Below, piece by piece: positions 15,326 to 34,274 of a DNA stretch of 64,000 nt (its first letter is position 1; each line of letters begins with the position of its first letter). Source of the stretch: Alkalihalobacillus sp. LMS39 (GTDB taxonomy: Bacteria > Bacillota > Bacilli > Bacillales > Bacillaceae_F); the NCBI RefSeq assembly GCF_022812285.1, contig NZ_CP093300.1, positions 744,001 through 808,000 on the forward strand, given 5' to 3'. The position numbers were made by a program, and so were the translations under genes. Below the pieces are notes generated by a model. That model had not been told where the DNA came from. It was given only the letters and a program-made list of their open reading frames with translations, and did no database searches.

Positions 15326-15353
15326 AAAACACTAGGCTTCCTAGTGTTTTTTT
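15326..15353 (+). terminator. Terminator of first conjugation unit
   Basis: AAAACACTAGG and CCTAGTGTTTT form an 11-bp stem with a three-base loop, followed by TTT. It lies eight bases after the 56-aa gene. Confidence 0.9.
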
Positions 15354-15663
15354 ACGTCCATGCCTATGCGCACCAATTCATAACTCAAAGAGAACTTTTG
15401 TAAACTAAGTTAAAAATTTTTCCTTGATATTTCTGATTTTATCTAATAAATGAGTTGGGAACTTTATTAAATTCTTTCTGTAATTTTATTACTCCTTTCA
15501 TATAAAAATACAAGAGTTGAGATATTATTTCCTTCTTATTCAGCCTAGTATTCGCTTTACGTATGTTGAATATTTTGTTGTGTTAATTATTGTTCAAGTG
15601 AGGTTATTTTAAATATATATACTCTAGATGAGATTGGAACAGACAAATAGGAATTAAGGATAA
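15354..15663. other. AT-rich spacer
   Basis: About 310 bases between the two conjugation transcription units. I see no frame with a ribosome site, no RNA gene and no clear repeat. Confidence 0.5.
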
Positions 15664-15692
15664 TTGACTTTCATACCAATTGGTAAAATATA
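15664..15692 (+). promoter_or_regulatory. Candidate promoter and operator of the T4SS operon
   Basis: TTGACT (15664-15669) is a good -35; an AATATA/TATAGG region 16-20 bases on may be the -10. The space between contains the perfect 12-bp palindrome TACCAATTGGTA (15674-15685), placed where a repressor would block RNA polymerase. Confidence 0.5.
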
Positions 15693-15791
15693 GGTATAAA
15701 GTTTTTTTTTATATAAAAGGTGAGAAAATTCCAGTTTTTTCTGGTAATATCTTCTTGTATAGTTGCTAAAAAAGTCGAGAAAGAAGGGAAC

Positions 15792-16400: not shown

Positions 16401-16416
16401 AAAGTAGGTGATCTTT

Positions 16417-17295: not shown

Positions 17296-17646
17296 ATGAA
17301 AAAGTGGTTAATTAAAAATAAAATTCTACTGATTGCATTCGGTATTACAACCGTTGTTTTCATAGTAATAACGTATTTTCAAATAAATCTAATTATGCAA
17401 CACCTACCTGACTTACATCATTATGCAGAAACTGGTGTCATTAGTGAACCACTTAACAAATTTGGAACGATAGGGATTTTTAATATCTTTATATTTGGGA
17501 TATGGGTGATTCTATTATTCGTAATTTTGTGGAAGATTATTTTCCCTTCAACTCAATCAGTCAAAAATGCTTTTCATGTGAATGATTTTGAATTTATTTT
17601 CGGGTTACCTTCCAATATCAGAAGGGAGCTGAAAAAACGTGAGTAA
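17296..17646 (+). CDS. Two-helix membrane protein of conjugation module
   Basis: A 116-residue protein with two membrane helices (ILLIAFGITTVVFIVITYF and IFNIFIFGIWVILLFVILW). It follows trbL without a gap and overlaps the next gene by eight bases. Small proteins of this shape lie at the same place in related conjugation clusters; no specific function is assigned. Confidence 0.75.
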   Translation: MKKWLIKNKILLIAFGITTVVFIVITYFQINLIMQHLPDLHHYAETGVISEPLNKFGTIGIFNIFIFGIWVILLFVILWKIIFPSTQSVKNAFHVNDFEFIFGLPSNIRRELKKRE

Positions 17647-18121
17647 CAATAACAACTACGTTATACCAATCCCAAAAGACTTAAAAAAAATACAAGCTAA
17701 ACTATTCTTCGGTCTTACACAACGTCAGTTAATTGGGTTTGGTGTAGCTGTAATTTCGGGAACTGCTACCTTTTTAGCATTGAAGCCCATTAGTATAGAT
17801 GCAGGAATGTACGGATTATTTTTTTCAGGAGCACCCATTTTCTTTGCGACAATCTATCAGAGAGACGGTATGTACACAGAACAATGGATTAAGTTAATTA
17901 TCGAACACAAATACCTTAATCCATCCAGAAGATACTTTAGAGTATCAAAACGGAACTTACCATTAGCAAAAGAAAGGAAGGTGGTGCAACGTGCAAAAAA
18001 ACGTAGGAAGTCACAAACTAGAAAGCTCAAACAAACTAAAGCGACGAAACCTGTTTCAAGTTCTACAACTACTGACAGACAAAAAACGGAAAAAACGAAC
18101 GTCAACACAAGAAACACTTAA
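17639..18121 (+). CDS. prgI: PrgI family conjugation protein
   Basis: A 160-residue protein with the PrgI pattern: VIPIPKDLKKIQAKLFFGLT, then RQLIGFG opening a two-helix membrane hairpin, then IKLIIEHKYLNPSRRYF. This VirB3-like part normally works with the VirB4 ATPase. The GTG start follows AAGGGAGC. The C-terminal 45 residues are a Lys/Arg/Thr-rich tail encoded by bases that also encode the VirB4 N terminus, a 131-base out-of-frame overlap. Confidence 0.85.
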   Translation: MSNNNNYVIPIPKDLKKIQAKLFFGLTQRQLIGFGVAVISGTATFLALKPISIDAGMYGLFFSGAPIFFATIYQRDGMYTEQWIKLIIEHKYLNPSRRYFRVSKRNLPLAKERKVVQRAKKRRKSQTRKLKQTKATKPVSSSTTTDRQKTEKTNVNTRNT

Positions 18122-20453
18122 TTACAACAAGATGTACCAAAACGGAATTTGTAATGTATCAGGTGATATTTACAATCGAATGATTCGCTTTTCTGACATT
18201 AGTTACCAACTTTCACAAGACGAAATTAAGCAACGTATTTTTGCTCAATATAGCTCATTGTTAAACTCATTTGACAATACAGTAAAGATTCAATTTTGCT
18301 TTATTAATTACCGATTGCCAAGAGAAAACAATCACAAAGAAGTAATTGAAACTATCAAAACCAGAAGTGATGTAGATGTTTCTGAGTTCGAATCATTAAA
18401 AGAGGAATATTTTAACTTTCTGGAAGAACAACGTCAAAAAGGGAGTAATGGAATCGTCAGAAATATGTACCTCGTATTTTCAATTGAAGATCCTAGCTAT
18501 GAAAGTGCTGTGCGTAGATTAAACAATATTGAAGCTAATATACAATCAAACTTTCAGCCGATGGGAGTCAGTACAGAAGAATTAGACGGTATGGAGCGTT
18601 TATCGATTATTAACTACTTATTAAACGGAAACAGTAAACATTATATTGATTTAGATTCTGTGCAAACAAACGAATTTAAAAAATACGCTTTCAAAGATTT
18701 TATAGCTCCTAAATTTATAGAATTTAAGCCAGAACAATTTACAGTGAACAGTAAACATGGAGCTACCCTGTATTACAGTGTTGAAGCTAACGAACTATCA
18801 GATCGAGTATTAGCTGAGTTTTTGGAATTAGATTTAGAAATGTTAGTAAGTATGCACATTTACTCATTAGACCAACAAAAAGCGGTTCGAATGGTTAAAA
18901 GAAAATCTTCTGACCTCGATACGATTAAAATTGAAGAACAGAAAAAAGCACTTAAAGCAGGATACGACATTGATATTCTCCCTACAGACTTAGACATGAA
19001 TGTTGAGGAATCAAAGAAAATATTAAAAGAATTACAACGTGAAAACGAAAAGTACTTTTTCTTAACGTTAACAATTACTGTTTTTGAAAACCAAAAGAAA
19101 GACTTAGACAATGCTATTTTTAGAGTTCAAAGCATAGCTGCAAAGCAAAATTGCACTCTAAAGAAAATGAAATATCAGCAAGAAAAAGGGTTCATTAGCG
19201 CTTTACCTCTAGGTGTAAATTTGAACGAACCTGAATTAGAAAGAGGTTTAACAACATCATCAACCGCTATCTTTGTGCCTTTCACTACACAAGAGCTATT
19301 TCAAGAAGACAATGAACCCATTTATTACGGTCTTAATGCTCTTAGTAATAACATGATTCAAGTATCGAGAAAGAGCTTAAAAAATCCGAATGGATTAATG
19401 CTAGGTACACCAGGTTCAGGTAAGTCTTTTTCTGCGAAAAGAGAAATCATCGACACATTCTTACGAACAACCGACGACATTTTAATCTGCGATCCAGAAG
19501 GAGAATATTTCCCTTTCGTAAAAAGGCTTGGCGGTGACGAAGTAAAGATAGCCATTAGGTCAGATCACTTTATAAACCCCTTAGATATATCGTTAGAGTA
19601 CGGTGAAGGTGAAAATCCTGTTGCATTCAAAAGTGATTTTATTTTAACGATGATGCAACTAATAGCTGGCGGTAAAACAGGATTAACAGCTCGCCAAAAA
19701 ACAATTGTTGATAAATGTGTACAAATTATCTATCGGCCATTTATTGAAAATCCTATTCCCGAAAATATACCGATATTAGAAAATTTGTTTAATGCTTTCA
19801 AAAATTCTAATTCAGTTGAAGGGAATGACTTAGCTGACGCTCTAGAATTGTATGTTCATGGCTCACTAAACATTTTTAACAACCGAACAACAATTAATAC
19901 GAACAACCGTTTGATTTGTTTCAATATCAAAGAGCTTGGTTCAAACTTACGGGAATTAGGAATGTTAGTCCTGCAAGACCACGTTTGGAACAAAGTTACA
20001 ATGAACCGAAACAAAAAAAGAACATGGTATTACATGGATGAATTTCATAAATTACTTGCTGAAGAACAAACGTCAAATTACAGCGTTGAGTTTTGGAAGA
20101 GATTCAGAAAATGGGGTGGAATACCAACTGGAATCACACAGAACGTAAAGGACTTGTTATTAAGTCCTCGTATTGAAACAATCATTGATAATACTGACTT
20201 TGTTTATTTACTGAATCAGGCAACAAGTGATCGGGTCATTTTACAACAAAAGTTTGAAATTAGTAATTACCAAGCAGACTACATTACTAATTCAGATGAA
20301 GGGTCAGGGTTGATTGTTTATAACGGTATAATCTTACCATTTAAAGACAAGTTTCCTCACGACAATTCTTTATATCCAGTAATGACAACAAAAACCGATG
20401 AAATCAAACAGTTTGAAGAAAAAAAGCTAAGGATTATTCTTGATAGTCAGTGA
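17991..20453 (+). CDS. virB4: VirB4-type conjugation ATPase
   Basis: An 820-residue ATPase (CD1110-like VirB4/TraE) that energises assembly and substrate passage. Walker A GTPGSGKSF is at about residue 471, followed by DDILICDPEGEYFPF, and the Walker B-type WYYMDEFHKLL is near 679. The GTG at 17991 has an excellent AAGGAAGGTGG site, and residues before MYQNGICNVSGD match the family N terminus, so the overlap with prgI appears real. The nlpC/P60 gene follows after 11 bases. Confidence 0.9.
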   Translation: MQKNVGSHKLESSNKLKRRNLFQVLQLLTDKKRKKRTSTQETLNYNKMYQNGICNVSGDIYNRMIRFSDISYQLSQDEIKQRIFAQYSSLLNSFDNTVKIQFCFINYRLPRENNHKEVIETIKTRSDVDVSEFESLKEEYFNFLEEQRQKGSNGIVRNMYLVFSIEDPSYESAVRRLNNIEANIQSNFQPMGVSTEELDGMERLSIINYLLNGNSKHYIDLDSVQTNEFKKYAFKDFIAPKFIEFKPEQFTVNSKHGATLYYSVEANELSDRVLAEFLELDLEMLVSMHIYSLDQQKAVRMVKRKSSDLDTIKIEEQKKALKAGYDIDILPTDLDMNVEESKKILKELQRENEKYFFLTLTITVFENQKKDLDNAIFRVQSIAAKQNCTLKKMKYQQEKGFISALPLGVNLNEPELERGLTTSSTAIFVPFTTQELFQEDNEPIYYGLNALSNNMIQVSRKSLKNPNGLMLGTPGSGKSFSAKREIIDTFLRTTDDILICDPEGEYFPFVKRLGGDEVKIAIRSDHFINPLDISLEYGEGENPVAFKSDFILTMMQLIAGGKTGLTARQKTIVDKCVQIIYRPFIENPIPENIPILENLFNAFKNSNSVEGNDLADALELYVHGSLNIFNNRTTINTNNRLICFNIKELGSNLRELGMLVLQDHVWNKVTMNRNKKRTWYYMDEFHKLLAEEQTSNYSVEFWKRFRKWGGIPTGITQNVKDLLLSPRIETIIDNTDFVYLLNQATSDRVILQQKFEISNYQADYITNSDEGSGLIVYNGIILPFKDKFPHDNSLYPVMTTKTDEIKQFEEKKLRIILDSQ

Positions 20454-20464
20454 GGTGACCTGTT

Positions 20465-22291
20465 ATGGCTTTAAAAAAACAATATGATAATTCTCAAAAA
20501 TTACAGCCACAGCTTGACGAAAAAATTAAACCGACTAAGAAAAAAAGTGGTTCCTCAATCCTTGCTAAAGAAACAGTAAAGTCTACTAGCGATAAAATCG
20601 TTAAAAGCAGTGTGAATAAATACAGCCAAGAATTACAGCGTGACGATGTAGGTGTTGAAGTTGTTGGGAAAACAACTGAAGTTGTTACTAAAGTAGGTAA
20701 AAAAGTAAACACAATCCGTAAAGAGAAAAAACTCAAACAAAAAAACTCTGATATAAAGCTAGTGAAGAAACGAAATTCGAGTGACAACTTTATAAAAAAA
20801 TTGTCTAAACAACCCACAGCGTTATCGACAAAGGCAATCAAACGAGGGGTCTCCAATTATAAAAAGCAGCTCGAAAAAGACGATGTAGGTGTTGAAGTAG
20901 TCGGGAAAGGTGCAACACTTACAAAAGAAGGAGTTAAAACTCTAGAAAGAGCTAACAAAATAAGGAAGCATCGACTCAATCAAGAAAAACTTCAGGGTAT
21001 GTCAACAAAATTATCTGGTGGCAACCAAAAGCTTTCAACGAAACAAAGTCAAAAAAGCAAACTCACAAAAAATGCTAAATCTCAACTGAAGAAGAAAGTA
21101 ATGAAAAGAAAATTGTATGCCAATAAGGGCAAACAGAAAGCTATATCTGCCATTTCAGGCGGTATAAAAACATTCTTTAAAAGCATCGGAACGAAAGCTT
21201 CACTAACCGCTTTAAAAAGCATGTTGGGTACAAAATTGGCGGTTGGTGCTGGAGCACTTTTTATAAAATTAACACCGATTTTCCTTGTTTGTCTTCTACT
21301 CTTTTCTTTAATTGCTTTCTTTATGTTTGGTGGTGGTGGTGTTCAACAACAAATAGAAGCCGAAATAGGAACATCGAGGAATCTATCACCCGAAGTTGAA
21401 CAATGGAGAGACCTAGTCATGACTGAAGCTGAAGCACAAGGAATGAGTGATTATGTAAATTTAGTTCTCGCTATAATCCAAGTCGAATCGGGAGGGAGAG
21501 GTACTAGGGATATTATGCAATCTTCCGAATCCGCAGGATATCCACGTAACTATTATCAAACCGAGGAGGAGTCCGTTCGACAGGGGATTAAATATTTAAA
21601 GCACATTGTCCTTATTCTCAAAGGTTATGAAAAAGGCTATGAAAACAATGCTAAATTAATTGCACAAAGCTACAATTTTGGTGCTCCATTTGCACATTAT
21701 GTAGGTAATTTAGGTGGAGAGTTCGATTTAGAAGTCGCTGAAGCTTATAGCCTTACTGTTGTTGCGCCAAGTTTAGGTAATACAACAGGAGAGACATACC
21801 CATATGTGAATGAAATATCAGTCCGTCTCGGAAAACCTTACTTATACCGTAACGGTGGGAATTTCATGTATGGGGAATTGGTCGGTCAATACATTATCAA
21901 CACTGCTCTTTCAGGAGATTTTGCCATCGTAATGGAAGAGTTGTTGAAATACCAAGGAACTCCATATGTATGGGGTGGAAAAACCCCAGATACAGGATTT
22001 GATTGCAGTGGATTAGTTGCATGGGGTCTTAAACAAATCGGTATTAACTTACCTTCCCCTGCAGCTGCTCAATTTCATAACACGATACCAATTGATATAG
22101 AAGATGCTCAACCCGGTGACCTTATATTTTTTAGGGGAACATACGGTGGTCCGAACCACATATCACATGTAGGGTTTTATATTGATGAAACAACAATGTA
22201 TGACTCTAACAGTAATGGTGTAGGTTACACAGATTGGAAATTGCCATACTGGCAACATCACTTTTTAGGAATTAGAAGAGTCGTTAAATAA
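20465..22291 (+). CDS. Bifunctional lysozyme-NlpC/P60 wall hydrolase
   Basis: A 608-residue CwlT-like protein that opens peptidoglycan for the conjugation channel. Residues 1-250 are very basic and carry two repeats with the core DDVGVEVVGK. A membrane segment (IFLVCLLLFSLIAFFMFGGG) follows at about 270-290. The external part has a lysozyme-like domain (AIIQVESGG with catalytic-type Glu, then IAQSYNFG) and a C-terminal NlpC/P60 domain with Cys in TGFDCSGLVAW (about 514) and His in NHISHVGFY. Both catalytic domains look intact. Confidence 0.88.
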   Translation: MALKKQYDNSQKLQPQLDEKIKPTKKKSGSSILAKETVKSTSDKIVKSSVNKYSQELQRDDVGVEVVGKTTEVVTKVGKKVNTIRKEKKLKQKNSDIKLVKKRNSSDNFIKKLSKQPTALSTKAIKRGVSNYKKQLEKDDVGVEVVGKGATLTKEGVKTLERANKIRKHRLNQEKLQGMSTKLSGGNQKLSTKQSQKSKLTKNAKSQLKKKVMKRKLYANKGKQKAISAISGGIKTFFKSIGTKASLTALKSMLGTKLAVGAGALFIKLTPIFLVCLLLFSLIAFFMFGGGGVQQQIEAEIGTSRNLSPEVEQWRDLVMTEAEAQGMSDYVNLVLAIIQVESGGRGTRDIMQSSESAGYPRNYYQTEEESVRQGIKYLKHIVLILKGYEKGYENNAKLIAQSYNFGAPFAHYVGNLGGEFDLEVAEAYSLTVVAPSLGNTTGETYPYVNEISVRLGKPYLYRNGGNFMYGELVGQYIINTALSGDFAIVMEELLKYQGTPYVWGGKTPDTGFDCSGLVAWGLKQIGINLPSPAAAQFHNTIPIDIEDAQPGDLIFFRGTYGGPNHISHVGFYIDETTMYDSNSNGVGYTDWKLPYWQHHFLGIRRVVK

Positions 22292-22307
22292 ATTAGGAGT
22301 GTTTAAC

Positions 22308-22421
22308 ATGAGTAAAGTCAAAAAAATCGAGGAACGAATCGAAAGCTATACCGAAGCTCTTAAAGCAGAAATGCAAAATAGTAGCGATACGACGAGATTC
22401 AATAATTACAAAGAGGGGTGA
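22308..22421 (+). CDS. Small DUF4315-like protein, 37 aa
   Basis: A 37-residue frame, MSKVKKIEERIESYTEALKA and on to YKEG, with TAGGAGTG before the ATG. It lies between the wall hydrolase and the DUF4366 gene, where conjugative elements normally carry a DUF4315 protein; the KKIEERIESYTEAL helix fits, although it is shorter than usual. A coiled-coil function is likely, but its role is unknown. Confidence 0.65.
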   Translation: MSKVKKIEERIESYTEALKAEMQNSSDTTRFNNYKEG

Positions 22422-22427
22422 AAACAA

Positions 22428-23147
22428 ATGAAACATAAACTCGTTAAACGATTATTAATTGCTAGTTTATTAGTTTCTGCTCTTATCGTTACTTCCATTA
22501 CTACAGCCTATGCTAATGAAGATGAGGAATCTGTTGACGTTGGCGATCCACCTAGTGGTGAAAATGTAATCAGAAACGAAAATGAAGTTGAAATTGATAT
22601 AGACACTCCTGCAAGCGTGACAGGGGAACGAATGGAAGGCAATGGAACAGTCGTTGATTTTACAACAAGTGGTTCAAAAGCGTTTTACACGATTGTAGAT
22701 AATGACCAACAAACATTCTATTTAATTATTGATATGGACAAGCCACAAAATAATGTGTATTTCCTTTCAGATATTAATCGAGCTGAATTAGGTGTTGCGG
22801 CTGCTAACACTCCAGACGATCAAGCTAGAGTTGCTCCCACACCTCCAAATGGAATGGAAGAACCTGAACTAGCATTAGAATCGGAGGACGTAACAGGAAC
22901 AACATCTGGAACAGATACAGATGATAATAATTTAGGCTTCTTATTAACAGTTGTAGTTATAGGTATAGTCGGAGCGTTTGCCTACTTCTTCTTAGTAGTA
23001 AAGAAGAAGCAAACCAAAAATAAATCTGAAGATAATGCAGTAATGTCTGAAGACTATGAGGATGATTTCGAAGGTGATATGTACGAGGAAGATTTTTATG
23101 AAGAAGACCATACAGAAACGGAACAACAACAGCAAGAAGATAGATGA
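22428..23147 (+). CDS. DUF4366 (CD1107-like) surface protein
   Basis: A 239-residue protein with an N-terminal signal (LLIASLLVSALIVTSITTAYA), an acidic external region, the core domain GNGTVVDFTTSGSKAFYTIV ending at IDMDKPQNNVYFLSD, a membrane helix near 170-190 and an acidic cytoplasmic tail. This is the DUF4366 layout of conjugative-element proteins. It likely forms part of the envelope-spanning channel. Its last four bases overlap the next gene. Confidence 0.85.
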   Translation: MKHKLVKRLLIASLLVSALIVTSITTAYANEDEESVDVGDPPSGENVIRNENEVEIDIDTPASVTGERMEGNGTVVDFTTSGSKAFYTIVDNDQQTFYLIIDMDKPQNNVYFLSDINRAELGVAAANTPDDQARVAPTPPNGMEEPELALESEDVTGTTSGTDTDDNNLGFLLTVVVIGIVGAFAYFFLVVKKKQTKNKSEDNAVMSEDYEDDFEGDMYEEDFYEEDHTETEQQQQEDR

Positions 23148-23635
23148 TTTTAAAAGTCTATATAAAAAGAAATCTGTTTCATCTTCCTCGTAAGCAAAAT
23201 GATTTAACCGAATTAATTAAAGAAAAGTTTTACAAAAACAAAACATTAGTAAAGACTGCTTTCCAAAAATTATATTCGATAACTGAAATAGAAAATGAAA
23301 ATATTGTTGTAGAACGAAACACTAACATTTTTCTGTTGAATTTATATTTGCTAGTTCTCCAAGAAAAAGGAGAACTAGCCTTCACAGAAAAAGTGGAATT
23401 TAATGATAAAGTACTTCTGCAAAAAATTGAAGAAAAAACAAGGTTGAATGTATTGAACGATTCCATCGAAGACATTGAAGAATTAGTCTTAAACCACTTA
23501 TATCCTACTGAGCAGAAAGCAACAAAAAAAGAACGTTTATTAGATACAAAAGATACAAGCAGCCGAGCTACTTTCGATCATATCGATTTTAGTATCGAAT
23601 GGATTAAAAAAGCTCATAACAAATTAAACGAATAA
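23144..23635 (+). CDS. Conjugation-module protein of unknown function
   Basis: A 163-residue soluble, mainly helical protein starting in an ATGA overlap with the DUF4366 gene. It contains LLNLYLLVLQEKGELAFTEK and many Glu/Lys residues. No signal peptide or recognised domain is seen. Coupling to its neighbour suggests a cytoplasmic partner of the channel. Not identified further. Confidence 0.65.
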   Translation: MILKVYIKRNLFHLPRKQNDLTELIKEKFYKNKTLVKTAFQKLYSITEIENENIVVERNTNIFLLNLYLLVLQEKGELAFTEKVEFNDKVLLQKIEEKTRLNVLNDSIEDIEELVLNHLYPTEQKATKKERLLDTKDTSSRATFDHIDFSIEWIKKAHNKLNE

Positions 23636-23652
23636 AGGAAGGAGCAAAAAAA

Positions 23653-25218
23653 TTGTTAAGAAGAACGCTAATTTTCCTTATTTGCTTGGTATTGTGTTTT
23701 TCGTTACCGTTCAATGTTGGTGCTGTCGATTCGCTTTCAGACCAAAGACAACACTACTTGAAAATAACGTATGACGATAAAGTCATCTTTCACGAACAAA
23801 TTGCCGAAGGTAAAATCATTCAAGTGAAAAATGCTCATGGTGACATTATAAAAAGCGAAGTATTAAAACGAGAAGAAGTTTATGAATTAAGGGAAGTAGA
23901 ACCCTCACAGGGCTATGTGTTGAGTTATTGGGATATTCAAGAAGACGAAAAATATTTGGTTGTTACTCCTGTTTTAACAGAAGTGAAAGCAATCAATATC
24001 ACATTTAACGCTTTGGAAGGAGGTGAATTAATTGAAAATAACGCTCAAACAAGGGTTATTACAAAAAGCGTGGATAAGGGAACACTCTTAAAAGAGGTAT
24101 TACCTAAAACAAATCCTCGTAAAGATTACAAGTTATCAGGATGGTATTTAAAAACAAACGATAAGAAATTTAAAAAAATTGAAAACCTGACATCATTAGA
24201 AGTATCTGGCCCAAATGAATATTACGCAAAATTTTATCCAGACATAAATGACAATAACATCGATGATCGTACAGAAAAAATCAAGGTGAAGTTCAGACCT
24301 AATACCGGTAAAAAAATCAAAAATAAGACTATATTTGTTGGAGAATCTTTTGAACTACCAAAGCTGGAACGAAAGAATTATATTTTTCTCGGTTGGTACT
24401 ATGATGAAGATTTCAAAAACAAATACAGTAACCAAGACCGACTAATGGAAGATACTACGTTATATGCACGATGGGAAAAAGCTGAAAAAGTTTTACAAGA
24501 AAGTGAATCAGAACCCATTACAGACAAAGAAATTTCAGACCAAATTGAACATTACTTAAATGAAAGATTACGAGAAATTGAAGAACAACTTTTACAAAGG
24601 TCATCTGGTAATAGAAATGAAAGTTCCAATAGCAACAACGACAGTAACAACAACATACTTGACCAAATCGATGGATTTGAATTAGGCGGAACTCAAAACA
24701 ATCCATATACCTACAACGAAGTTTTGACATACACAGAGACAAAATACGTTTTCAATAATACCAACATTGGTGAACGTTATATGATTAAGTTTAAAGACCA
24801 AAATAATCAATTTTTATTCAGTTTAACTTTGCCTTATGGGAGATCCATTCATGTGCTGCATGAAAATGAGAGTATTCAAAAAGAATACGCTGTGAGGCAG
24901 GAAACAACGATTAATTTAAACATACCTGATTTTGTTCATAACGAATCCGAATTTATCGGTTTCGATTCCAGAACAAAAAGAGTAAATAGTTCATCCATTA
25001 CAGAGGTTTATCCCAAAGTGCAACAATATCAACCTACGGATGTACTAGTATCCAATGAGCTAGTCGAAGAATTAGCAAGTGAAGAAATAGAAAGTGCATC
25101 ACATATAATTGCTCTTATTTCAACAGTGATATTGCTTGTACTTGTTATCGCTATAGTTATTTACTTCATATTTTCACGTCAAAAAAGCAAAAAATCTGAC
25201 GTTGTAAATGTGAAATAA
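23653..25218 (+). CDS. Anchored InlB-type repeat surface protein
   Basis: A 521-residue surface protein. It has a signal peptide (LIFLICLVLCFSLPFNVGAV), at least two InlB B-type beta-grasp repeats (ending LSGWYLKT and FLGWYYDEDF, the second followed by TTLYARWEK), an Asn/Ser-rich linker near 315-335, and a C-terminal membrane helix followed by a short basic tail. There is no LPxTG motif. The TTG start is supported by AAGGAAGGAG. In a conjugation cluster it may be a mating adhesin. Confidence 0.8.
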   Translation: MLRRTLIFLICLVLCFSLPFNVGAVDSLSDQRQHYLKITYDDKVIFHEQIAEGKIIQVKNAHGDIIKSEVLKREEVYELREVEPSQGYVLSYWDIQEDEKYLVVTPVLTEVKAINITFNALEGGELIENNAQTRVITKSVDKGTLLKEVLPKTNPRKDYKLSGWYLKTNDKKFKKIENLTSLEVSGPNEYYAKFYPDINDNNIDDRTEKIKVKFRPNTGKKIKNKTIFVGESFELPKLERKNYIFLGWYYDEDFKNKYSNQDRLMEDTTLYARWEKAEKVLQESESEPITDKEISDQIEHYLNERLREIEEQLLQRSSGNRNESSNSNNDSNNNILDQIDGFELGGTQNNPYTYNEVLTYTETKYVFNNTNIGERYMIKFKDQNNQFLFSLTLPYGRSIHVLHENESIQKEYAVRQETTINLNIPDFVHNESEFIGFDSRTKRVNSSSITEVYPKVQQYQPTDVLVSNELVEELASEEIESASHIIALISTVILLVLVIAIVIYFIFSRQKSKKSDVVNVK

Positions 25219-25257
25219 AATGAAATAAAAAATTTTAAAGTAGAGGAGTTTTGTATT

Positions 25258-25476
25258 ATGTCATTCTTTTTGACAGGTGTAGATGTTCTTCAGAAGTTGG
25301 TAATTTTAATCGGTGCTGGATTAGGAGTTTGGGGCGTAGTTAACCTACTAGAAGGTTACGGAAATGATAATCCTGGGGCAAAGTCTCAAGGTATGAAACA
25401 ATTTATGAGTGGAGCAGGGATTGTAATAATCGCTATGCTTTTAATTCCTCAGTTAAAAACTTTGTTCGCCACATAA
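25258..25476 (+). CDS. Maff2 family pilin-like protein
   Basis: A 72-residue protein with two hydrophobic helices: FFLTGVDVLQKLVILIGAGLG and, near the end, FMSGAGIVIIAMLLIPQLK. The central NLLEGYGNDNPGAKSQGMKQ is the Maff2 hallmark. Such proteins occupy the VirB2 (pilin-like) slot of Gram-positive conjugation systems. GAGGAG lies upstream of the ATG. A terminator-like hairpin follows, so it may be made in excess of the coupling protein. Confidence 0.88.
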   Translation: MSFFLTGVDVLQKLVILIGAGLGVWGVVNLLEGYGNDNPGAKSQGMKQFMSGAGIVIIAMLLIPQLKTLFAT

Positions 25477-25495
25477 ATAAAAAGATACAACTGAC

Positions 25496-25521
25496 AAGGG
25501 CGAGTTGAAAAACTCGTCCTT
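25496..25521 (+). terminator. Attenuating hairpin before virD4
   Basis: AAGGGCGAGTT pairs with AACTCGTCCTT (one G-U pair) around a GAAA tetraloop; TATTATTTT follows. It is probably a partial terminator between the pilin-like gene and the coupling protein. Confidence 0.7.
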
Positions 25522-25548
25522 ATTATTTTATAGAAGGAGTAGATAGCA

Positions 25549-27408
25549 TTGATTGAAAAAATGAAAGCAAACAAAGTCTATCTCACTTTGGGCGTATTTT
25601 TATTTGTTTTAGTAAACTATTTGTCTTATTATTTTCGGGTGACATTTGCTCACGACTTTCTTACAGGTTTCAATTATCTTTTTGAGCAACCTAAATACTT
25701 ATTTTACGCTTTCCCTTTATCTTTTAATATAACTGATTTAAGTATTGCTTCTGTGGTTATTGCGGTCGGTGCGTTACTTCTATATGAGAAAAACCAAAAC
25801 AAAAAGAAGTATAAAAAAGGTGTTGAACATGGTTCTGCGGAATGGGGAACAGTCGAAAGAGATTTAAAGGGTATGTACGATGAAAATGACCAATATAACA
25901 ATCTCATTTTTAGCGAAAAAACAAAAATAAGATTAGACGATACAGGCACTCCATTTGATACAAGACGTAATAAAAATGTCATTTATATCGGGGGTTCAGG
26001 TAGTGGTAAAACCCGTTTTGGAGTCAAGCCAAATTTACTTCAAATGAACGCTAGTTTCGTTGTTACTGATCCGAAAGGAACAATCGTCAATGAAGTAGGG
26101 ATGGCACTAAAAAATGTCGGAAAATACAAGATTAAAATTTTTAATACAACCAATTTTAATAAATCAATGAAATACAATCCGTTAAGCTACGTCAAGACTG
26201 AACAAGATATTTTAAAACTAGTTGAGACAATTATCTCTAACACAACCAATGAAGATTCACAGTCCGAAAGCTTTTGGGTGAATACCGAAAAACTACTTTA
26301 TCAAGCTTATTTGAGCCTTATTATTTCTAAATTCCCTAAAGAAGAACAGCATTTAGGAACATTAATCGATTTAATCTCTTACTCTAACGTAAAAGAAGAG
26401 GACGAAGAATATAAAAATGCGGTTGATTATTTGTTTGAGGAACTAGAAATGGAAGATAAAGAACATTTTGCAGTAAAACAATATAAAGCGTATAAGTTAG
26501 CTGCTGGGAAAACCGCTAAAAGTATTTTAATTTCTTGTGCTACACGTTTAGCTCCTTTAAACATTCCAGCTGTTCGAGACTTACTATCAAAGAATGAAAT
26601 TAATTTAGAGACATTTGGGGACAAAGGAAGAAAGACCGCCTTATTCGTTATCATACCTGATACCGATCCAACATTTAACTTCCTTGTATCGATGATGTAC
26701 ACTCAATTATTTAATATTTTAGTGACTAGAGCAGATGAAAAATATAAAGGCTCATTACCTACTCACGTTCGCTTTATGCTTGATGAATTTGCCAATATCG
26801 GTTTGATACCTAATTTTGATAAATTAATCGCTACAATCCGTTCTCGGAACATGTCAGCAACGATCATAATTCAAACGTTGTCACAATTAAAATCAATTTA
26901 TAAAGATAATGCTGAAACAATTGTAGGTAACTGTGATACATCAATTTTTCTTGGTGGAAATGAAAAATCTACAATTAAATCCTTGTCTGAGGATTTAGGA
27001 AAAGAAACGATAAATGACTATAATGAATCTCGTACAAGATCGAACAATGATAGTTACGGTCAAAATTATTCAAAATTAGGTCGTGCATTAATGACTGAAG
27101 ATGAAATTAAGAGGATGGATCGTGATACCTGCATTGTCCAAATCCTCGGCAAAAGACCGTTTAAAGATAAAAAATATCCTTTAGAAAAGCATCCACGCTA
27201 TAAATTTCACAGTGATGGTAATAAATATTGGTTTGATATAGACCAATATTTACAAGCCTTGAGACGTCCTAAAAAACAAAAAATAAAGACAAGTAAGGTA
27301 AAGGATACAAATATAACTTCTGTTGAATCACCTCAACCACAATTAAAATTAACAGCTACAACTGATTCAATCAGTATAAATTTAAAAAAATATGGGGAGA
27401 AAATATAA
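25549..27408 (+). CDS. virD4: VirD4-type coupling protein
   Basis: A 619-residue T4SS coupling ATPase that brings the relaxase-DNA complex to the channel. Two N-terminal membrane helices (YLTLGVFLFVLVNYLSYYF and the ITDLSIASVVIAVGALLLY region) are followed by HGSAEWGT, Walker A GGSGSGKTRFGVKPN (about 147) and Walker B VRFMLDEFANIG (about 411). The TTG at 25549 follows GAAGGAG; the ATG at 25561 is an alternative. It is the last conjugation gene; the decayed IS66 element begins 130 bases later. Confidence 0.9.
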   Translation: MIEKMKANKVYLTLGVFLFVLVNYLSYYFRVTFAHDFLTGFNYLFEQPKYLFYAFPLSFNITDLSIASVVIAVGALLLYEKNQNKKKYKKGVEHGSAEWGTVERDLKGMYDENDQYNNLIFSEKTKIRLDDTGTPFDTRRNKNVIYIGGSGSGKTRFGVKPNLLQMNASFVVTDPKGTIVNEVGMALKNVGKYKIKIFNTTNFNKSMKYNPLSYVKTEQDILKLVETIISNTTNEDSQSESFWVNTEKLLYQAYLSLIISKFPKEEQHLGTLIDLISYSNVKEEDEEYKNAVDYLFEELEMEDKEHFAVKQYKAYKLAAGKTAKSILISCATRLAPLNIPAVRDLLSKNEINLETFGDKGRKTALFVIIPDTDPTFNFLVSMMYTQLFNILVTRADEKYKGSLPTHVRFMLDEFANIGLIPNFDKLIATIRSRNMSATIIIQTLSQLKSIYKDNAETIVGNCDTSIFLGGNEKSTIKSLSEDLGKETINDYNESRTRSNNDSYGQNYSKLGRALMTEDEIKRMDRDTCIVQILGKRPFKDKKYPLEKHPRYKFHSDGNKYWFDIDQYLQALRRPKKQKIKTSKVKDTNITSVESPQPQLKLTATTDSISINLKKYGEKI

Positions 27409-28130: not shown

Positions 28131-28368
28131 GTTAAAAATCCTGAAATTTTTCAGTCTTAACACACAAATTTAATATCCCATATGAATGTGATTTTACAAG
28201 TTGTTAAAAACAAAAGACGACTAAACTACTGTTGAAATTTATATAAAGATGGTTAGGGATCAGAAATTAAAAGCTAGTGGTATACATAGGAATTAATGTT
28301 CATAATTGTAAATAGTATGGTAAAATACGTAATATAAAAGAATATCTAATAAGTGGTAGGTGTATTTA
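28131..28368. other. Upstream region of the beta-helix/Hsp70/AAA+ set
   Basis: AT-rich, no gene. It must hold the promoter for the three-gene set; a candidate -10 TAAAAT lies at 28321-28325 region, but I could not assign a -35 with confidence. Confidence 0.4.
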
Positions 28369-29697
28369 ATGTATACTCGTAAAGAATTAACCGTTTCAAA
28401 AAAGTTTTTTTCTAAATATAAAACTATTTCTGATGCCATAAGGGATGCAAAACCTGGTTTTAAAGTTTTTGTTGAGCCTGGTACCTACTATGAAAATATT
28501 ATTATAGATAAAGATGTGGAAATAATCGGAAAAGGATCGGTGGACGACATCGTTCTGTTTAGTATCAATATATCTGCTATTAAGATGCAGACAGAATGTG
28601 CTTCTGTTCGAGGGATAACCATCCGCCAAGGAGGAAAAGTCGAGGAAAAGATAGGTTATAGTGCTGTCAGCTCGTATATGGGTTCATTGACTTTGGAGAA
28701 TTGTGTTATTAGTTCAGAAATAGGAATAGGCATTATTGTAACTGAAGAAGGAAATCCAATTATTCGAGAATGTAAAATTTATAGTAATAAAGATAGTGGT
28801 GTAGTATTTTTAGGAGGCAGTGGAATCATTGAAAATTGTGAAATCTATAATAATGGAAGTGCGAATGTAGAGATATCATCAGAAGCGGATCCAGTACTAA
28901 GGGGCTGTAAAATTTATAACAGTAAGCAATGGGGCGTAGTAGTTATGAAAAAAGGCCGGGGAACAATGGAAAACTGTGAAATCTATAGTAACGCATTGGA
29001 TAATGTAGTGATAATAAGTGAAGGGTATCCAGTGTTAAAGAGCTGTAAGATATACAGCAGTGAGGAAAGTGGTGTATCCGTGGTGTACGAAGGCCGAGGA
29101 ACACTGGAGAACTGTGAAATCTATAGTAACGCTAAACCCAATGTTGTAATAGATAATAAGGGAGATGCGTTGTTAAAAAGCTGTAAGATATACAGTGGTG
29201 AGCAAAGTGGCGTATTGGTGAAGGGAAAAAGTCGTGGGATTATTGAAGACTGTTATATATATGACCATCGTCATGACCACCAGATACATCTCCAAGGTAC
29301 TATAGGGGTACTAAGAAATACTAGAATTATAGATGGTGGAAATTATGGTATTTATGTCGAGTCTGGCTATCCACTTATCTATTATTGCACCATTAAAAAC
29401 CATCTAGTGGAAGACATTTATACGGATGAATATAGTATGTCGAGTATTCTGTTGGAAAATGAAAGTTTGGAGAGGGAGACAAAATCACGTGATGATAAGC
29501 CAACAAACCAATCCAAGTATGAGCAAATTTTTGGATTTAATCCATATGATTTAGAGCAAGAGGAGTTAAAATTGTGGCTACTAGAGGAACAAAAGAAATG
29601 GCTTAAGCGAATTAATGCACCAAGCTTAGAACGAAGACAAGAAGCAGAACAAATGCTTGAAATCATTGGAGAAGCTGAAAAAGAGTTATTGAAATAA
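28369..29697 (+). CDS. Right-handed beta-helix repeat protein
   Basis: A 442-residue protein without signal peptide. After an N-terminal cap (YKTISDAIRDAKPGFKVFVE, EPGTYYENI) come repeated turns in which CKIYSxxxSGV alternates with GxxENCEIYSN, at least four copies of about 46 residues between about 130 and 310. These are carbohydrate-binding/pectate-lyase-like beta-helix coils, as in F-box protein 11-type repeats. No catalytic lyase residues are evident. The C-terminal 75 residues are different: charged helix with LLEEQKKWLKRINAPSLERR followed by QEAEQMLEIIGEAEKELL. The ATG at 28369 has GGTAGGTG upstream. Probably a cytoplasmic binding scaffold for the next two gene products. Confidence 0.8.
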   Translation: MYTRKELTVSKKFFSKYKTISDAIRDAKPGFKVFVEPGTYYENIIIDKDVEIIGKGSVDDIVLFSINISAIKMQTECASVRGITIRQGGKVEEKIGYSAVSSYMGSLTLENCVISSEIGIGIIVTEEGNPIIRECKIYSNKDSGVVFLGGSGIIENCEIYNNGSANVEISSEADPVLRGCKIYNSKQWGVVVMKKGRGTMENCEIYSNALDNVVIISEGYPVLKSCKIYSSEESGVSVVYEGRGTLENCEIYSNAKPNVVIDNKGDALLKSCKIYSGEQSGVLVKGKSRGIIEDCYIYDHRHDHQIHLQGTIGVLRNTRIIDGGNYGIYVESGYPLIYYCTIKNHLVEDIYTDEYSMSSILLENESLERETKSRDDKPTNQSKYEQIFGFNPYDLEQEELKLWLLEEQKKWLKRINAPSLERRQEAEQMLEIIGEAEKELLK

Positions 29698-29728
29698 AAG
29701 AAAATGTTAGTGGGAAAGGGTGGTAAGC

Positions 29729-31237
29729 TTGCTTATTGGAATTGATTTAGGAACAACAAACTCAGCAGTCTCTTATATTGACGAACATGGAAATCCAGTA
29801 ATTATTCCTAACCGTGAAGGTGAAAGAACAACTCCTTCCGTTATTTTCTTTGAAGATGATACACCAATTATAGGAAGCTCTGCCAAAGCTATGTCGGTGA
29901 GTGACCCGTTTAATACGATTCAATTTGTTAAGAGACATATGGGGAGCAAGAGCTTTAATTTTAAAACAGGGACCGGAACAACATATACAACAGAAGAGCT
30001 TTCGGCATTAGTTTTAAAAAGGTTAAAGAAAGATGCTGAAACCTATTTAGGACAAACCATAACAAAGGCTGTTATTACTGTACCGGCATATTTCGATGAT
30101 GCACAAAGACAGGCAACATTAGATGCCGGTGAAATTGCTGGATTACAAGTTTTAAGAGTAATTAATGAGCCGACAGCCGCAGCTTTAGCATATGGTTTAC
30201 GTCAAGGAACGGAAGAACAAAATATTCTCGTTTATGACCTTGGTGGTGGGACATTTGACGTTACTATATTAAGTATATCCAAGGATGTTATTAGAGTGAG
30301 AGCAACAGGTGGGGATCGGAACCTCGGCGGTTTTGACTTTGATAATAAAGTTATTAATTATGTACAAGAGAAGTTTGAAGAGGAGCATAAAATTGACTTA
30401 TATGACGATGAAATTGCTCTGCAAGAGTTAAGGGAGAAGGCGGAAGTATGTAAAAAAACGCTAACAAACCGCAAGAAAGCGCTAATCAATATTACGTCAC
30501 AAGGTAAATCGTTACGAGTAGAAATCACGAAAGAGATATTTGAGGAAATGATTTCCCCGCTTCTCAATCGTACCTCACTCATTATGAATACAGTGTTAAA
30601 TGATGCTAATTTATCTTGGGAGGAGATTGATAAAGTGCTGCTTGTTGGTGGGTCAACTCGTGTTCCGGCAGTCAGTGACATAATCGAAAAAACGACGGGG
30701 AAATCTCCTTCGTTAGATGTAAACCCTGATGAAATTGTTGCATTAGGTGCAGCGATTCAAGCGATGCTCTTGGATCAGAATAGTGAGGTTAGTCCAAGCG
30801 ATTCAGCTAATGTCATTATCGATGTGAATTCTCATAGTTTAGGAACATTAACAATAGATTCTGATACTGAAAAATTTGTAAACTCTATTATTTTACCAAG
30901 AAATACTGAGTTGCCAGCAAGTAAAAGTGAAGTTTACTATACATGTGAAGATAATCAAAAAAGCATTCACCTTCAGCTTACAGAAGGTGAAGATGAGGAT
31001 CCAGAGTATGTTCGAGTGATCGGGGAAACACTAATTCAACTCGAAGAACATCTTCCTGCTGAATCTCCTTTACGGATTACGATCTCTTACGATGAAAATG
31101 GGATAATTCATGCTTATGCCCATGACGAAACATCAAAGAAACAGTTAGGTGAGCTAAAGATTAATCGAACTGCTAACTTAAGTGGAGACAGTGTAGACGA
31201 AAAGACAAAAAAGTTTTTACTCATTGATGTTGAATAA
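29729..31237 (+). CDS. Hsp70-family protein without lid
   Basis: A 502-residue DnaK-like ATPase. It starts with IGIDLGTTNSAVSYI and has the phosphate-2 motif DLGGGTFDVTIL (about 169) and the adenosine motif LLVGGSTRVP (about 303). INEPTAAALAYG is intact, so it should bind and hydrolyse ATP. The beta-sandwich substrate region is divergent and the helical lid is missing: DnaK is about 610 residues. The TTG at 29729 is chosen because AAAGGGTGG precedes it. No dnaJ or grpE is nearby, so this is a specialised Hsp70, not the housekeeping chaperone. It lies 31 bases after the beta-helix gene. Confidence 0.85.
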   Translation: MLIGIDLGTTNSAVSYIDEHGNPVIIPNREGERTTPSVIFFEDDTPIIGSSAKAMSVSDPFNTIQFVKRHMGSKSFNFKTGTGTTYTTEELSALVLKRLKKDAETYLGQTITKAVITVPAYFDDAQRQATLDAGEIAGLQVLRVINEPTAAALAYGLRQGTEEQNILVYDLGGGTFDVTILSISKDVIRVRATGGDRNLGGFDFDNKVINYVQEKFEEEHKIDLYDDEIALQELREKAEVCKKTLTNRKKALINITSQGKSLRVEITKEIFEEMISPLLNRTSLIMNTVLNDANLSWEEIDKVLLVGGSTRVPAVSDIIEKTTGKSPSLDVNPDEIVALGAAIQAMLLDQNSEVSPSDSANVIIDVNSHSLGTLTIDSDTEKFVNSIILPRNTELPASKSEVYYTCEDNQKSIHLQLTEGEDEDPEYVRVIGETLIQLEEHLPAESPLRITISYDENGIIHAYAHDETSKKQLGELKINRTANLSGDSVDEKTKKFLLIDVE

Positions 31238-31250
31238 TAATCAAATGTGT

Positions 31251-31282
31251 TAGATATCTAGGGTTATAATTCTAGATATCTA
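31251..31282. repeat. 11-bp inverted repeat between hsp70 and AAA+ genes
   Basis: TAGATATCTAG (31251-31261) and CTAGATATCTA (31272-31282) pair perfectly around ten bases. It is AT-rich and has no T run, so it may be an mRNA stability or processing hairpin, or a protein site, rather than a terminator. Confidence 0.6.
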
Positions 31283-31329
31283 TATTTATGTTTGCAAATT
31301 AATAAAAGAAAGAGGTGTATCTATTCAAA

Positions 31330-33759
31330 ATGAATTACTACGATAGGACTCCTGCTATTCAAGCGTTTTGTCAGCAAATCGAAAACGATACACGATTTGG
31401 TATCAACCAAAAATCGATTCAACGGGTTGAGAAAAAATTAGCTGAATATCCTCAACATCCTGATTTATTGTTCTTAATGGGAAAGTTATTTTTTTATTTG
31501 AATGAGTGGTTAAAGGCTTCAAAATATTTCTATCAGGCAGTGAAAGCAAAATCAACGGTAGCCGAACATTTTGCCTTCTACGGATGGACATTGTTTAAGC
31601 TGAATGATGTGGAAATGGCCAAAACTTACTTAGAAAAGGCCTATAACTTAAATTCCGAAGATGTAACAACATGTCTAGTGCTAGGAATAGTATCTTATAA
31701 AGAAAAGGAATTTTCAGTTGCTCTAAATTATTGTAATAAAGGAATTTATTCAGGTTTACATGAGCATGAATTTTTCAGGTTAAAGGCAAATTGCTACTTG
31801 AATATGGGAAAACCAATCGATGAAATCATTCCAATTATTGAAAGGGCACAAAAATTAGGAGAGGACCATCAGTTAGATTATGAATATGCTAAGTTACTTT
31901 TTATTAATCAACAGATGGAGGATTGTAATAAGTTCTGTAGAAAGTTCATGTTGAAATACCCACAGTCAGTACATAAACATAAGTTTCAACAAATAATGAA
32001 TAAAATAAAAGAAAATAACAATGCTCATGATAAACAATCAAAGAATCAACAGGGTACAAACGAACAAAAACAAAGAACACCTAAACGTATAAATGAATTG
32101 TTAGATGAGTTAAATCAATTCATTGGTTTAGAAAATGTAAAAAACAGTATACAGGAAATGATTAATCTACTAGAGATTAACCGTTTTAAGGAAGAACGAG
32201 GATTGAAAGCTACACCACCTGTAGCCCCACATATGGTTTTTTACGGTAATCCGGGAACAGGTAAGACGACAATTGCACGACTCATTGGAGATATTTTTCA
32301 TTCGCTAGGATTGTTGAAGCAAGGGCATTTGGTTGAAGTAAAACGAGAAGATCTGGTTGGACAGTTTATTGGAGATACCGAAAAAAATACAAAAGAAAAG
32401 ATTGAGGAAGCACTTGGTGGTGTTCTATTTATTGATGAGGCATATACACTAGCAGAGAAGAGTGGAAAAGGTAGTAATGATTTTGGAGTAAAGGCGATTA
32501 ATGTACTGTTACCAGCGTTAACTAATCATCGCGGTGAATTTATCGTCATTGCTGCTGGTTATAAAGAGGAGATGGAAATGTTTCTCGCCTCGAATCCAGG
32601 ATTAAAGGACCGATTTACGAACAAGATTCATTTTGATGATTACACCCCTTCAGAGCTAATGGATATTTTCAATAAATTATGCGAAGACAAAGGTAATATC
32701 CTAGATGAAAATGCAAGCCGATTATTAGTAGAAGAGTTCACCCGTTTGTATCGTAAACGAGATAAAACCTTCAGTAATGGTAGACTTGTCCACAACTATT
32801 TTGAAAGGATTGTCAAAGTTCAATCAAATCGCATTATCCAAGTACCAAAAGAACAGTGGAATGATGAATTAATGGTTAAATTGACAGAGGATGACGTGAG
32901 GAGTGTTCTCCCTAAGGAAGAAGGAAAACTATTTGAAATTCCAATTAATGAAGAACTTTTACAGGAGAAACTAGCACAATTAGATTCAATGATTGGACTT
33001 CAATCTGTAAAAGAAGAAATTTATCAATTAGTAAGTCTCGTCCGTTATTATAAACAAGAAAAAAAGAATTTGAAGAAACTGATTAAGCATGTGTTGCTTT
33101 TGGGGAATCCTGGAACAGGGAAAACCGAGGTGGCACGGATCCTTGCTGTAATTTACGAAGCATTAGGAATATTAGAGCGTGGGGAGCTTATTGAAATCGA
33201 CCGAAATGGTTTAGTCGATAAATACCGGGGCGGGACTGAAGAAAAGACAATGAAGGTCATTGCAAAAGCAATGGGAGGTACGTTATTTATTGATGAAGCT
33301 TACACGTTAACGAACAAAGATAGACATGATCCTGGACACGCAGCATTAGAAATATTATTGAAAAAAATGTCGGATTTAGAAGGACAGTTTATGGTCATTG
33401 CGGCAGGATACAATGCAGAAATGGAACAGTTTTTAGCTAGTAATTCAGGATTACCACGGCGCTTTGGTTTAACACTCCATTTTGAGGATTATACACCATC
33501 GGAATTAATGGAAATATCCAAGTATTATTTATCAGGTTATCAGCTTTCTGCATCTGCGGAAACACTTCTAAACCAACACTATGAACATATGTATCAAACA
33601 AGAAATAAAACGTTTGGCAATGCAGGGTTTGCAAGAAAGGTTATATCAGAGTCGATTAAAAATCTTGATTACCGGGTTTCTCAACTACCATCAGAGGAGT
33701 TAACAGAAGAAATTAAGAAAACCATTGAACCATCTGATATTGCAACTTTAACGAATTAA
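31330..33759 (+). CDS. TPR plus double CbbX/SpoVK-type AAA+ ATPase
   Basis: An 809-residue cytoplasmic protein. Residues 1-210 are TPR-like helices (SKYFYQAVKAKS, AKTYLEKAYNLNSED). After a Gln/Asn-rich linker come two AAA+ modules of the CbbX/CfxQ/SpoVK/EccA type: Walker A GNPGTGKTTIARL (about 305) with LFIDEAYTL (about 365), and GNPGTGKTEVARI (about 591) with LFIDEAYTL (about 650). Both have the VIAAGY sensor and FLASNxGL segments. Both sites look active. It is likely a hexameric remodeller acting with the Hsp70 and beta-helix protein. The ATG at 31330 is favoured; the GTG at 31315 lies in the ribosome site. Confidence 0.85.
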   Translation: MNYYDRTPAIQAFCQQIENDTRFGINQKSIQRVEKKLAEYPQHPDLLFLMGKLFFYLNEWLKASKYFYQAVKAKSTVAEHFAFYGWTLFKLNDVEMAKTYLEKAYNLNSEDVTTCLVLGIVSYKEKEFSVALNYCNKGIYSGLHEHEFFRLKANCYLNMGKPIDEIIPIIERAQKLGEDHQLDYEYAKLLFINQQMEDCNKFCRKFMLKYPQSVHKHKFQQIMNKIKENNNAHDKQSKNQQGTNEQKQRTPKRINELLDELNQFIGLENVKNSIQEMINLLEINRFKEERGLKATPPVAPHMVFYGNPGTGKTTIARLIGDIFHSLGLLKQGHLVEVKREDLVGQFIGDTEKNTKEKIEEALGGVLFIDEAYTLAEKSGKGSNDFGVKAINVLLPALTNHRGEFIVIAAGYKEEMEMFLASNPGLKDRFTNKIHFDDYTPSELMDIFNKLCEDKGNILDENASRLLVEEFTRLYRKRDKTFSNGRLVHNYFERIVKVQSNRIIQVPKEQWNDELMVKLTEDDVRSVLPKEEGKLFEIPINEELLQEKLAQLDSMIGLQSVKEEIYQLVSLVRYYKQEKKNLKKLIKHVLLLGNPGTGKTEVARILAVIYEALGILERGELIEIDRNGLVDKYRGGTEEKTMKVIAKAMGGTLFIDEAYTLTNKDRHDPGHAALEILLKKMSDLEGQFMVIAAGYNAEMEQFLASNSGLPRRFGLTLHFEDYTPSELMEISKYYLSGYQLSASAETLLNQHYEHMYQTRNKTFGNAGFARKVISESIKNLDYRVSQLPSEELTEEIKKTIEPSDIATLTN

Positions 33760-34237: not shown

Positions 34238-34274
34238 AAAAGCAGTCCCTTTACGGAGAGGGATTGCTTTTTTG
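34238..34274 (+). terminator. Terminator downstream of DUF1328 gene
   Basis: AAAGCAGTCCCT pairs with AGGGATTGCTTT (one G-U/A-C change), followed by TTTTTT. Confidence 0.75.

Follow-up and report, generated by a model that had tools for sequence, protein, structure and literature searches.

Why would the gene of an Hsp70 that has no lid lie between a beta-helix gene and the gene of a double AAA+ ATPase? The question arises in the 64-kb window of DNA that was analysed here, positions 744001-808000 of the single 4.85-Mb contig of Alkalihalobacillus sp. LMS39. The list of open reading frames (ORFs) of the window holds three adjacent, intact plus-strand frames, for a beta-helix protein, an Hsp70 and an ATPase with a front of tetratricopeptide repeats (TPR) and two AAA modules, separated by 22 and 77 bp, just as an initial annotation of the sequence had described them. 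That annotation proposed a dedicated recognition, chaperone and remodelling set. We consider it reasonably probable that the three genes do form one dedicated machine, in which the beta-helix recognizes, the Hsp70 holds and the AAA+ ATPase remodels. The feature that would connect them is a tail on the beta-helix protein resembling the J-domain of DnaJ.

A distinct clade of lidless Hsp70s

The window Hsp70 (29720..31237, 505 aa, starting at GTG 29720 or TTG 29729) matches Pfam HSP70 at 4.4e-144, over positions 2-511 of the 599 in the model. It ends at residue 505, and the alpha-helical lid of the substrate-binding domain (SBD alpha) is absent. The protein scores well below the NCBIfam equivalog cut-offs for DnaK (496.1 of 648 and 486.5 of 822.55 bits) and for HscA (400.6 of 708.55 bits). 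Its best plasmid match, a 510-aa Hsp70 of Rhodococcus pseudokoreensis with 46% identity over 496 residues, stops at the same place. Further short Hsp70s occur in at least four genomes of our phylum sample (G788, G811, G834 and G623), and the class sample contributes 14 genomes from two families with short Hsp70 frames at 45-54% identity.

Phylogenetic analysis separates 24 lidless Hsp70s from 13 DnaK proteins at 100/100, with the window and Rhodococcus proteins on long branches; this comparison did not include L067, the two broken L094 copies, L066 or the DnaK of L044. All 24 lidless proteins, the window one included, end after 503-513 residues, and the window lid was therefore not lost by a local frameshift. 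By sequence, the window Hsp70 is thus assigned to a distinct lidless clade and is not a truncation.

Residues are given in what we take to be DnaK numbering, placed by motif in the alignment. The equivalents of K70, E171, D194, T199 and D201 are kept in every lidless row (24 of 24) and every DnaK row (13 of 13), so that the earlier prediction of an ATP-competent but lid-less Hsp70 stands, on these five catalytic residues and on the Pfam match that ends at 511 of 599. The interdomain linker, by contrast, has been rewritten: P396S and L397H each occur in 23 of the 24 lidless proteins and in none of the 13 DnaKs. In the window protein the linker codons (30809..30823) read N-V-I-I-D, followed by VNSHSLG, where the alignments give VVLLDVTPLSLG for the host's own DnaK. 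E206 is kept in only two of the 24 lidless proteins, whereas R167 (21/24), Q378 (22/24) and P419 (24/24) are largely conserved. All four are J-domain contacts in the DnaK-DnaJ structure, and R167, Q378 and P419 are contacts of the His-Pro-Asp (HPD) motif (PMC8215388); the portions of that review drawn on here make no such claim for P396 and L397.

A J-like domain on the beta-helix protein

The beta-helix protein (28360..29697) is 445 aa long as called, although an ATG at 28369, behind TAGGTG, looks by eye to be the likelier start, agrees with the coordinate in the initial annotation and would give 442 aa. Its C-terminal domain lies at 29515..29691 (residues 386-444). We built a profile from nine seed stretches, the window tail among them, and searched it against the ORFs of the fetched loci. 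The domain turned up at 15 loci, of which six lay outside the seed (1e-27 to 5.8e-11); ordinary DnaJ proteins scored 0.07 and 0.43 in two cases and above 1 in two others. Rebuilt without the window, the model still picks out the beta-helix tail from 915 window ORFs at 56.6 bits (E 1e-16), the runner-up reaching 7.8 bits, and the best of 2000 shuffles scored 9.9 against 61.0 for the tail.

Is this a J-domain? Comparison of the 15-member family, which includes the Rhodococcus and window sequences, with nine DnaJ J-domains gave an hhalign probability of 96.9 (E 1.5e-10). Three of eight J-like proteins or pieces pass the Pfam DnaJ cut-off of 27.8 (35.2, 30.0 and 27.9 bits); the window beta-helix protein alone has no Pfam DnaJ match. 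The HPD motif, which in J-domains lies between helices II and III, is however lost in 14 of the 15 members. The aligned triplets are A-P-Q in five, A-A-Q in two and S-P-S in two, and the rest occur once each: A-P-H, A-P-S (window), S-P-D, S-A-D, H-P-N (Rhodococcus) and H-P-D. The last belongs to L064, whose retained HPD supports a J ancestry for the family. The window loop reads N-A-P-S where DnaJ has Y-H-P-D; the asparagine before the HPD place is found in 14 of 15 members and the proline in 12 of 15, and helix II exceeds that of DnaJ by about five residues. An AlphaFold2 single-sequence model of the 71-aa tail has three helices (12-17, 26-43 and 49-70) with a predicted local confidence (pLDDT) of 88.3 (68.9-88.3 over five models) and a predicted TM-score (pTM) of 0.67; structural comparison of this model could not distinguish a J-domain from helical hairpins of other kinds.

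Four kinds of protein carry the domain beside a lidless Hsp70: TPR proteins whose C-termini are hydrophobic, proteins of 220-296 aa, a Rhodococcus TPR protein and the beta-helix protein. In the Bacilli, most loci have a TPR protein, mostly of 426-437 aa, after the Hsp70, with the J-like stretch N-terminal and a C-terminus that is hydrophobic by eye. In G788, G811 and G623 a protein of 220-296 aa lies between or after the Hsp70 copies and carries a similar stretch at its end. On this evidence the beta-helix tail is best described as an HPD-less J-like domain of the kind that accompanies the lidless Hsp70 clade. Fusion of such a pseudo-J domain to the scaffold predicts a physical link to the Hsp70, and we think it likely that the domain binds the window Hsp70.

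Partner genes at the lidless Hsp70 loci

Across the 14 Bacilli loci (L081-L094, the Hsp70s of L094 being broken), a GrpE-like gene is present in all 14 (in two pieces in L094), a J-like gene in 10, and Tad pilus genes (CpaE/CpaF/TadB-like) in the fetched stretch of nine, one only partly. In L094 (6826-10584, genome G510) both lidless Hsp70 genes and the GrpE-like gene are broken. L063, L064, L065 and the Rhodococcus plasmid locus L043 have both GrpE-like and J-like partners. In L063 (8684-13642) and L064 (5807-11169) the lidless Hsp70s are in tandem, a J-like protein separates them, and next comes a gene that by eye resembles one for a polyprenyl synthase. The Rhodococcus operon (L043 7592-16209) encodes a lidless Hsp70, a TPR protein whose N-terminal J-domain accounts for the 35.2-bit Pfam DnaJ match, a GrpE, an EccCa-like FtsK/SpoIIIE ATPase (89 of 509 bits) and small proteins. 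An 86-aa protein of WXG100 size that lacks W-x-G and a 272-aa protein without a Pfam match are among its products.

The statement that no DnaJ or GrpE lies near the three genes holds for GrpE, but only formally for DnaJ. The GrpE-like ORFs of the lidless loci score 62.9-300 bits (the lowest being a piece of a broken gene), while nothing in the 64-kb window exceeds 7.0 bits, and no J-domain with HPD was seen there; the HPD-less one is fused to the beta-helix protein. Genome-wide, the host has one GrpE gene at E 0.001, and G420, G533, G430 and G314 have two each.

Beta-helix protein and ATPase as halves of a fusion

The beta-helix protein matches Pfam Beta_helix at 6.2e-54. It has no obvious signal peptide by eye, and because of this we take it to be cytosolic. 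The ATPase (31315..33759, 814 aa, with an alternative start at ATG 31330) matches Pfam AAA at 4.2e-35 over two stretches, together with AAA_lid_6. Its TPR matches are mostly below cut-off, as are all those to TPR_1, TPR_2 and TPR_8 over the front (31387..32019, about residues 25-235). The two modules (32098..32919 and 32953..33732) each have Walker A (residues 311 and 597), Walker B (371 and 657), a sensor-1 GY (414 and 697) and an SN.GL..R finger (426 and 709), in agreement with the description of both as intact CbbX/SpoVK-type modules. With an AAA core that carries sensor-1 GY and AAA_lid_6, they are assigned to the SpoVK/CbbX/EccA clade. The SpoVK model TIGR02881 gives 468.6 bits against a cut-off of 422.95, although this score is summed over the two modules; those for EccA (TIGR03922, 444.8 of 466.65 bits) and CbbX (TIGR02880, 391.9 of 459.25 bits) stay below theirs. 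A separate single-module TIGR02881 match, in a 319-aa frame, lies elsewhere in the same genome. Further multi-module ATPases of the clade are encoded at L107 8780-11110 (window genome, two modules) and L106 8931-12557 (a relative, three modules).

Matches to the ATPase were found in two of 299 genomes of the order sample at E 1e-70 (the window genome and G173), in six of 299 of the class sample at E 1e-72 (the window genome, G559, G420, G533, G434 and G514, those of G434 and G514 being single-module), in two of 299 of the phylum sample (the window genome and G783) and, at E 1e-70, in none of six other genomes of the host family. In G173 (1348 aa), G559 (1164 aa) and G420 (1064 aa) a beta-helix is fused in front of AAA-AAA as one protein, and G533 has a broken copy of the gene (L054 8215-9766). 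The window ATPase shares 50-54% identity with the ATPase half of these fused relatives; the window beta-helix is 48% identical to that of G420 over 365 aa and 21-25% identical to those of G173 and G559. A tree built from 10 double-AAA proteins groups the window ATPase with G173, G420 and G559 at 100/100, and the split of a fused ancestor is therefore the simplest reading: the beta-helix and ATPase genes here would be the separated halves of a known fusion. That the two proteins act together is, in our judgement, highly likely.

The pairing extends to plasmids. The ATPase query matched 249 records, of which 40 were listed, and the beta-helix query 18, all from Streptomyces; in at least 13 of these 18 the ATPase and beta-helix matches are adjacent. 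One Streptomyces plasmid gene of this kind lies near eccCa and an S8 peptidase gene, and another adjoins an S8 peptidase gene. Among the chromosomal relatives, a Ser/Thr kinase gene (L053 3860-5305) is about 2 kb upstream of the fused gene of G420, and about 5 kb from that of G173 is a gene (L037 2704-4503) that by eye seems to encode an LXG-type secreted protein.

How often the three parts meet

By the test that the initial annotation set, the three families should often co-occur in other genomes. This expectation fails for the full triad, whose adjacency we saw in the window genome only among the genomes sampled; pairs recur. None of the 20 lidless Hsp70 loci that we examined has the ATPase or the beta-helix. 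G420 and G533 do have both a lidless Hsp70 and a beta-helix/AAA gene, the latter broken in G533, but the two lie apart in the genome. The proposal of a dedicated set thus lacks the triad elsewhere, while it gains from the fusion of the two outer parts in the three closest relatives and from a tail that bears the domain of the Hsp70 clade.

A sister species of the same genus (G005) has a separate operon (L105 6945-15047), encoding in order a J-TPR protein, a 90-aa protein, a single-module SpoVK-clade ATPase, a GrpE-like protein, a 580-aa Hsp70, a TPR protein and a second J-TPR protein. Both J loops lack HPD by eye, reading F-P-N and Y-P-N. This Hsp70 keeps its lid; in the tree it goes with the DnaKs, although its branch is long and unsure in placement. 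Because this different operon contains both, an Hsp70 module has probably been paired with a SpoVK-clade ATPase at least twice.

A proposed recognize, hold and unfold mechanism

How might the three proteins work? We propose that the machine is cytosolic and that the beta-helix binds a target or site. Its C-terminal J-like hairpin would dock the lidless Hsp70 at the face formed by the nucleotide-binding domain and linker, as a J-domain does on DnaK, only without HPD and against the changed linker (DVxSHSLG). The Hsp70, having no lid for trapping peptides, would hold the target transiently and leave a segment exposed, which would pass to the TPR-AAA-AAA ring to be threaded or remodelled. ADP release, we guess, would be left to the housekeeping GrpE or be spontaneous. 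If a lidless Hsp70 binds weakly, a J part carried by the scaffold could offset this by concentrating the Hsp70 at a single site, and would explain both losses, of the lid and of HPD. Such a set would have originated when a beta-helix/AAA fusion was split, with an Hsp70 gene coming to lie between the halves, and the scaffold gained the J-like domain belonging to that Hsp70. The sequences show the homologies, the fused relatives, the J-like domain and the lidless clade with its GrpE-like and J-like neighbours. Docking, hand-over, threading and the shared target are what we infer, and that all three proteins serve one pathway seems to us somewhat better than an even bet.

Several findings weigh against this scheme. 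The triad is confined to one sampled genome. Neither the window nor the rest of its genome has the second, GrpE-like gene of the lidless loci. As a general rule, given in the parts of two reviews used here, changes in HPD abolish J stimulation (PMC8215388, PMC13254874). L064 has the linker change but retains HPD, so that the loss of HPD and the rewriting of the linker are not strictly tied. The fold comparison of the tail was uninformative.

Could the arrangement be an accident? A lidless Hsp70 module might have inserted by chance between the halves of a beta-helix/AAA gene, leaving two systems that work apart; the absence of the triad from the other genomes sampled, the separate loci of G420 and G533 and a GrpE-like gene that did not come along would all fit. 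Yet mere insertion of a gene would not fuse the Hsp70-accompanying domain to the beta-helix protein, and all three frames are open, so that we hold this to be improbable. The tail might also be just a helical spacer or dimerization hairpin, with the Hsp70 working with the housekeeping DnaJ. That R167, Q378 and P419 are mostly kept suits this idea, as do the missing HPD and the uninformative fold, but the same domain recurs beside the same Hsp70 clade in four protein contexts and 23 of 24 lidless Hsp70s have the rewritten linker; we give a mere spacer little chance.

The remaining alternatives concern purpose. The unit might help the type IV secretion genes (13056-27408), whose VirD4, VirB4-like, PrgI and TrbL/VirB6-like members end about 950 bp upstream; lidless Hsp70s, moreover, lie by Tad pilus genes in nine of 14 loci and by an EccC-like ATPase in Rhodococcus. 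Such a helper is nonetheless unlikely, since by eye we recognized no conjugation genes beside the beta-helix/AAA relatives in L037, L052 and L053 and no relaxase or integrase in the window, and no convincing repeat flanks the unit. The unit might instead be accessory cargo for anti-phage defence, an IetA-like AAA+ system to which chaperone parts belong. This would agree with IetA/IteA matches to the ATPase (84.7 bits in PADLOC, 60.5 of 510 bits in NCBIfam), with the S8 peptidase genes near two Streptomyces relatives and with an ATPase that stands beside conjugation genes and has no match at E 1e-70 in six other family genomes. The ATPase misses the NCBIfam cut-off by far, however; PADLOC matches neither the Hsp70 nor the beta-helix, and none of the three proteins has a nuclease, toxin or protease domain in Pfam. 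We regard defence as quite unlikely.

Of the roles suggested at the outset, defence, secretion or assembly of a surface or sporulation structure, defence gets from PADLOC no more than a likeness of the ATPase, while the neighbours of the relatives point to pili and secretion. For the three-gene machine that we favour, we guess at a target in the envelope, a pilus or a secretion structure, judging by these neighbours (Tad, EccC-like and type VII secretion genes) and by what has been published on the roles of the clade. A structure of the envelope or of secretion is more likely than defence as the purpose of the set, though a target of that kind is put forward only tentatively.

Relation to known systems

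Which parts of this set are new? In the portions of Delerue et al. drawn on here, TPRs and a beta-helix occur among EccA-type members, and characterized members of the SpoVK/EccA clade are dedicated chaperones (PMC10659427). The window ATPase resembles them in its Walker, sensor-1 GY and finger motifs, in its TPR or beta-helix recognition parts and in the proposed dedicated role; it differs in that a gene of its own encodes the beta-helix together with a J-like tail, each chain has two AAA modules and an Hsp70 gene lies in between. The claim that no described system has such a composition was accordingly too strong for the beta-helix/ATPase pair. The newest part is the pair of lidless Hsp70 and pseudo-J domain; no such pair is named in the literature titles and abstract openings we searched, and a description elsewhere is possible.

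The closest parallel to that pair is HscC of E. coli with DjlB and DjlC, a specialized Hsp70 whose own J partners deviate from HPD; both have HPE and are tail-anchored in the membrane, according to the relevant parts of the reviews (PMC8215388, PMC13254874). The Bacilli J-like TPR proteins, with C-termini that are hydrophobic by eye, recall this anchoring. HscC, however, has a lid in the review's account, which the window clade lacks, and here neither H nor D survives in most J-like loops, and the family usually comes with a GrpE-like gene. Most loci of relatives have three components homologous to DnaK, DnaJ and GrpE, but with the lid missing, the linker changed, HPD mostly lost and other parts attached to the J-like protein. 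A J-type domain that has lost HPD is found also in Pam16 and other type IV J proteins, and the role of such HPD-less proteins is described as not elucidated (PMC13254874, in part); here the loss is common to 14 of 15 members tied to one Hsp70 clade. IetAS shares a related AAA domain, although the window ATPase is far below its NCBIfam cut-off. The partner in IetAS is a protease (subtilase); none was recognized in the three-gene unit, and no profile search of the window for a subtilase was made.

Three prokaryotic Hsp70 types, drawn with a lid, are listed in the part of the review used here (PMC8215388). We would tentatively add a fourth bacterial type: a lidless clade with its own GrpE, a mostly HPD-less J partner and a rewritten linker, forming an orthogonal pair that in the window would be wired through the beta-helix fusion into a recognize-hold-unfold complex of the SpoVK/EccA clade. 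A lidless clade with a largely HPD-less partner provides a natural case in which to test the purpose of the lid and whether J-Hsp70 coupling can be rewired, and the triad one in which to test the purpose of the HPD switch motif. It may also offer a concrete Hsp70-to-AAA+ hand-over with a named recognition part.

Layout and surroundings of the unit

A 14-bp inverted repeat between the Hsp70 and ATPase genes (31251..31282, no strand assigned) is terminator- or attenuator-like, and a terminator-like hairpin (34238..34271, plus strand) closes the three-gene unit. The window has six terminator-like sites, against 3.0 in shuffles (standard deviation 1.9), and 28 promoter-like sites, no excess over the shuffle mean of 28.1. 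The type IV secretion/conjugation genes upstream encode TrbL/VirB6-like, PrgI, VirB4-like ATPase, lysozyme-NlpC/P60, CD1107-like and VirD4 (CD1115 family) proteins. Near the start of the window (809-4904) is a vanG-type cluster with genes for a D-Ala-D-Ser ligase (VanG model, 563.8 bits, cut-off 495), a VanXY-like protein and a VanT-like racemase.

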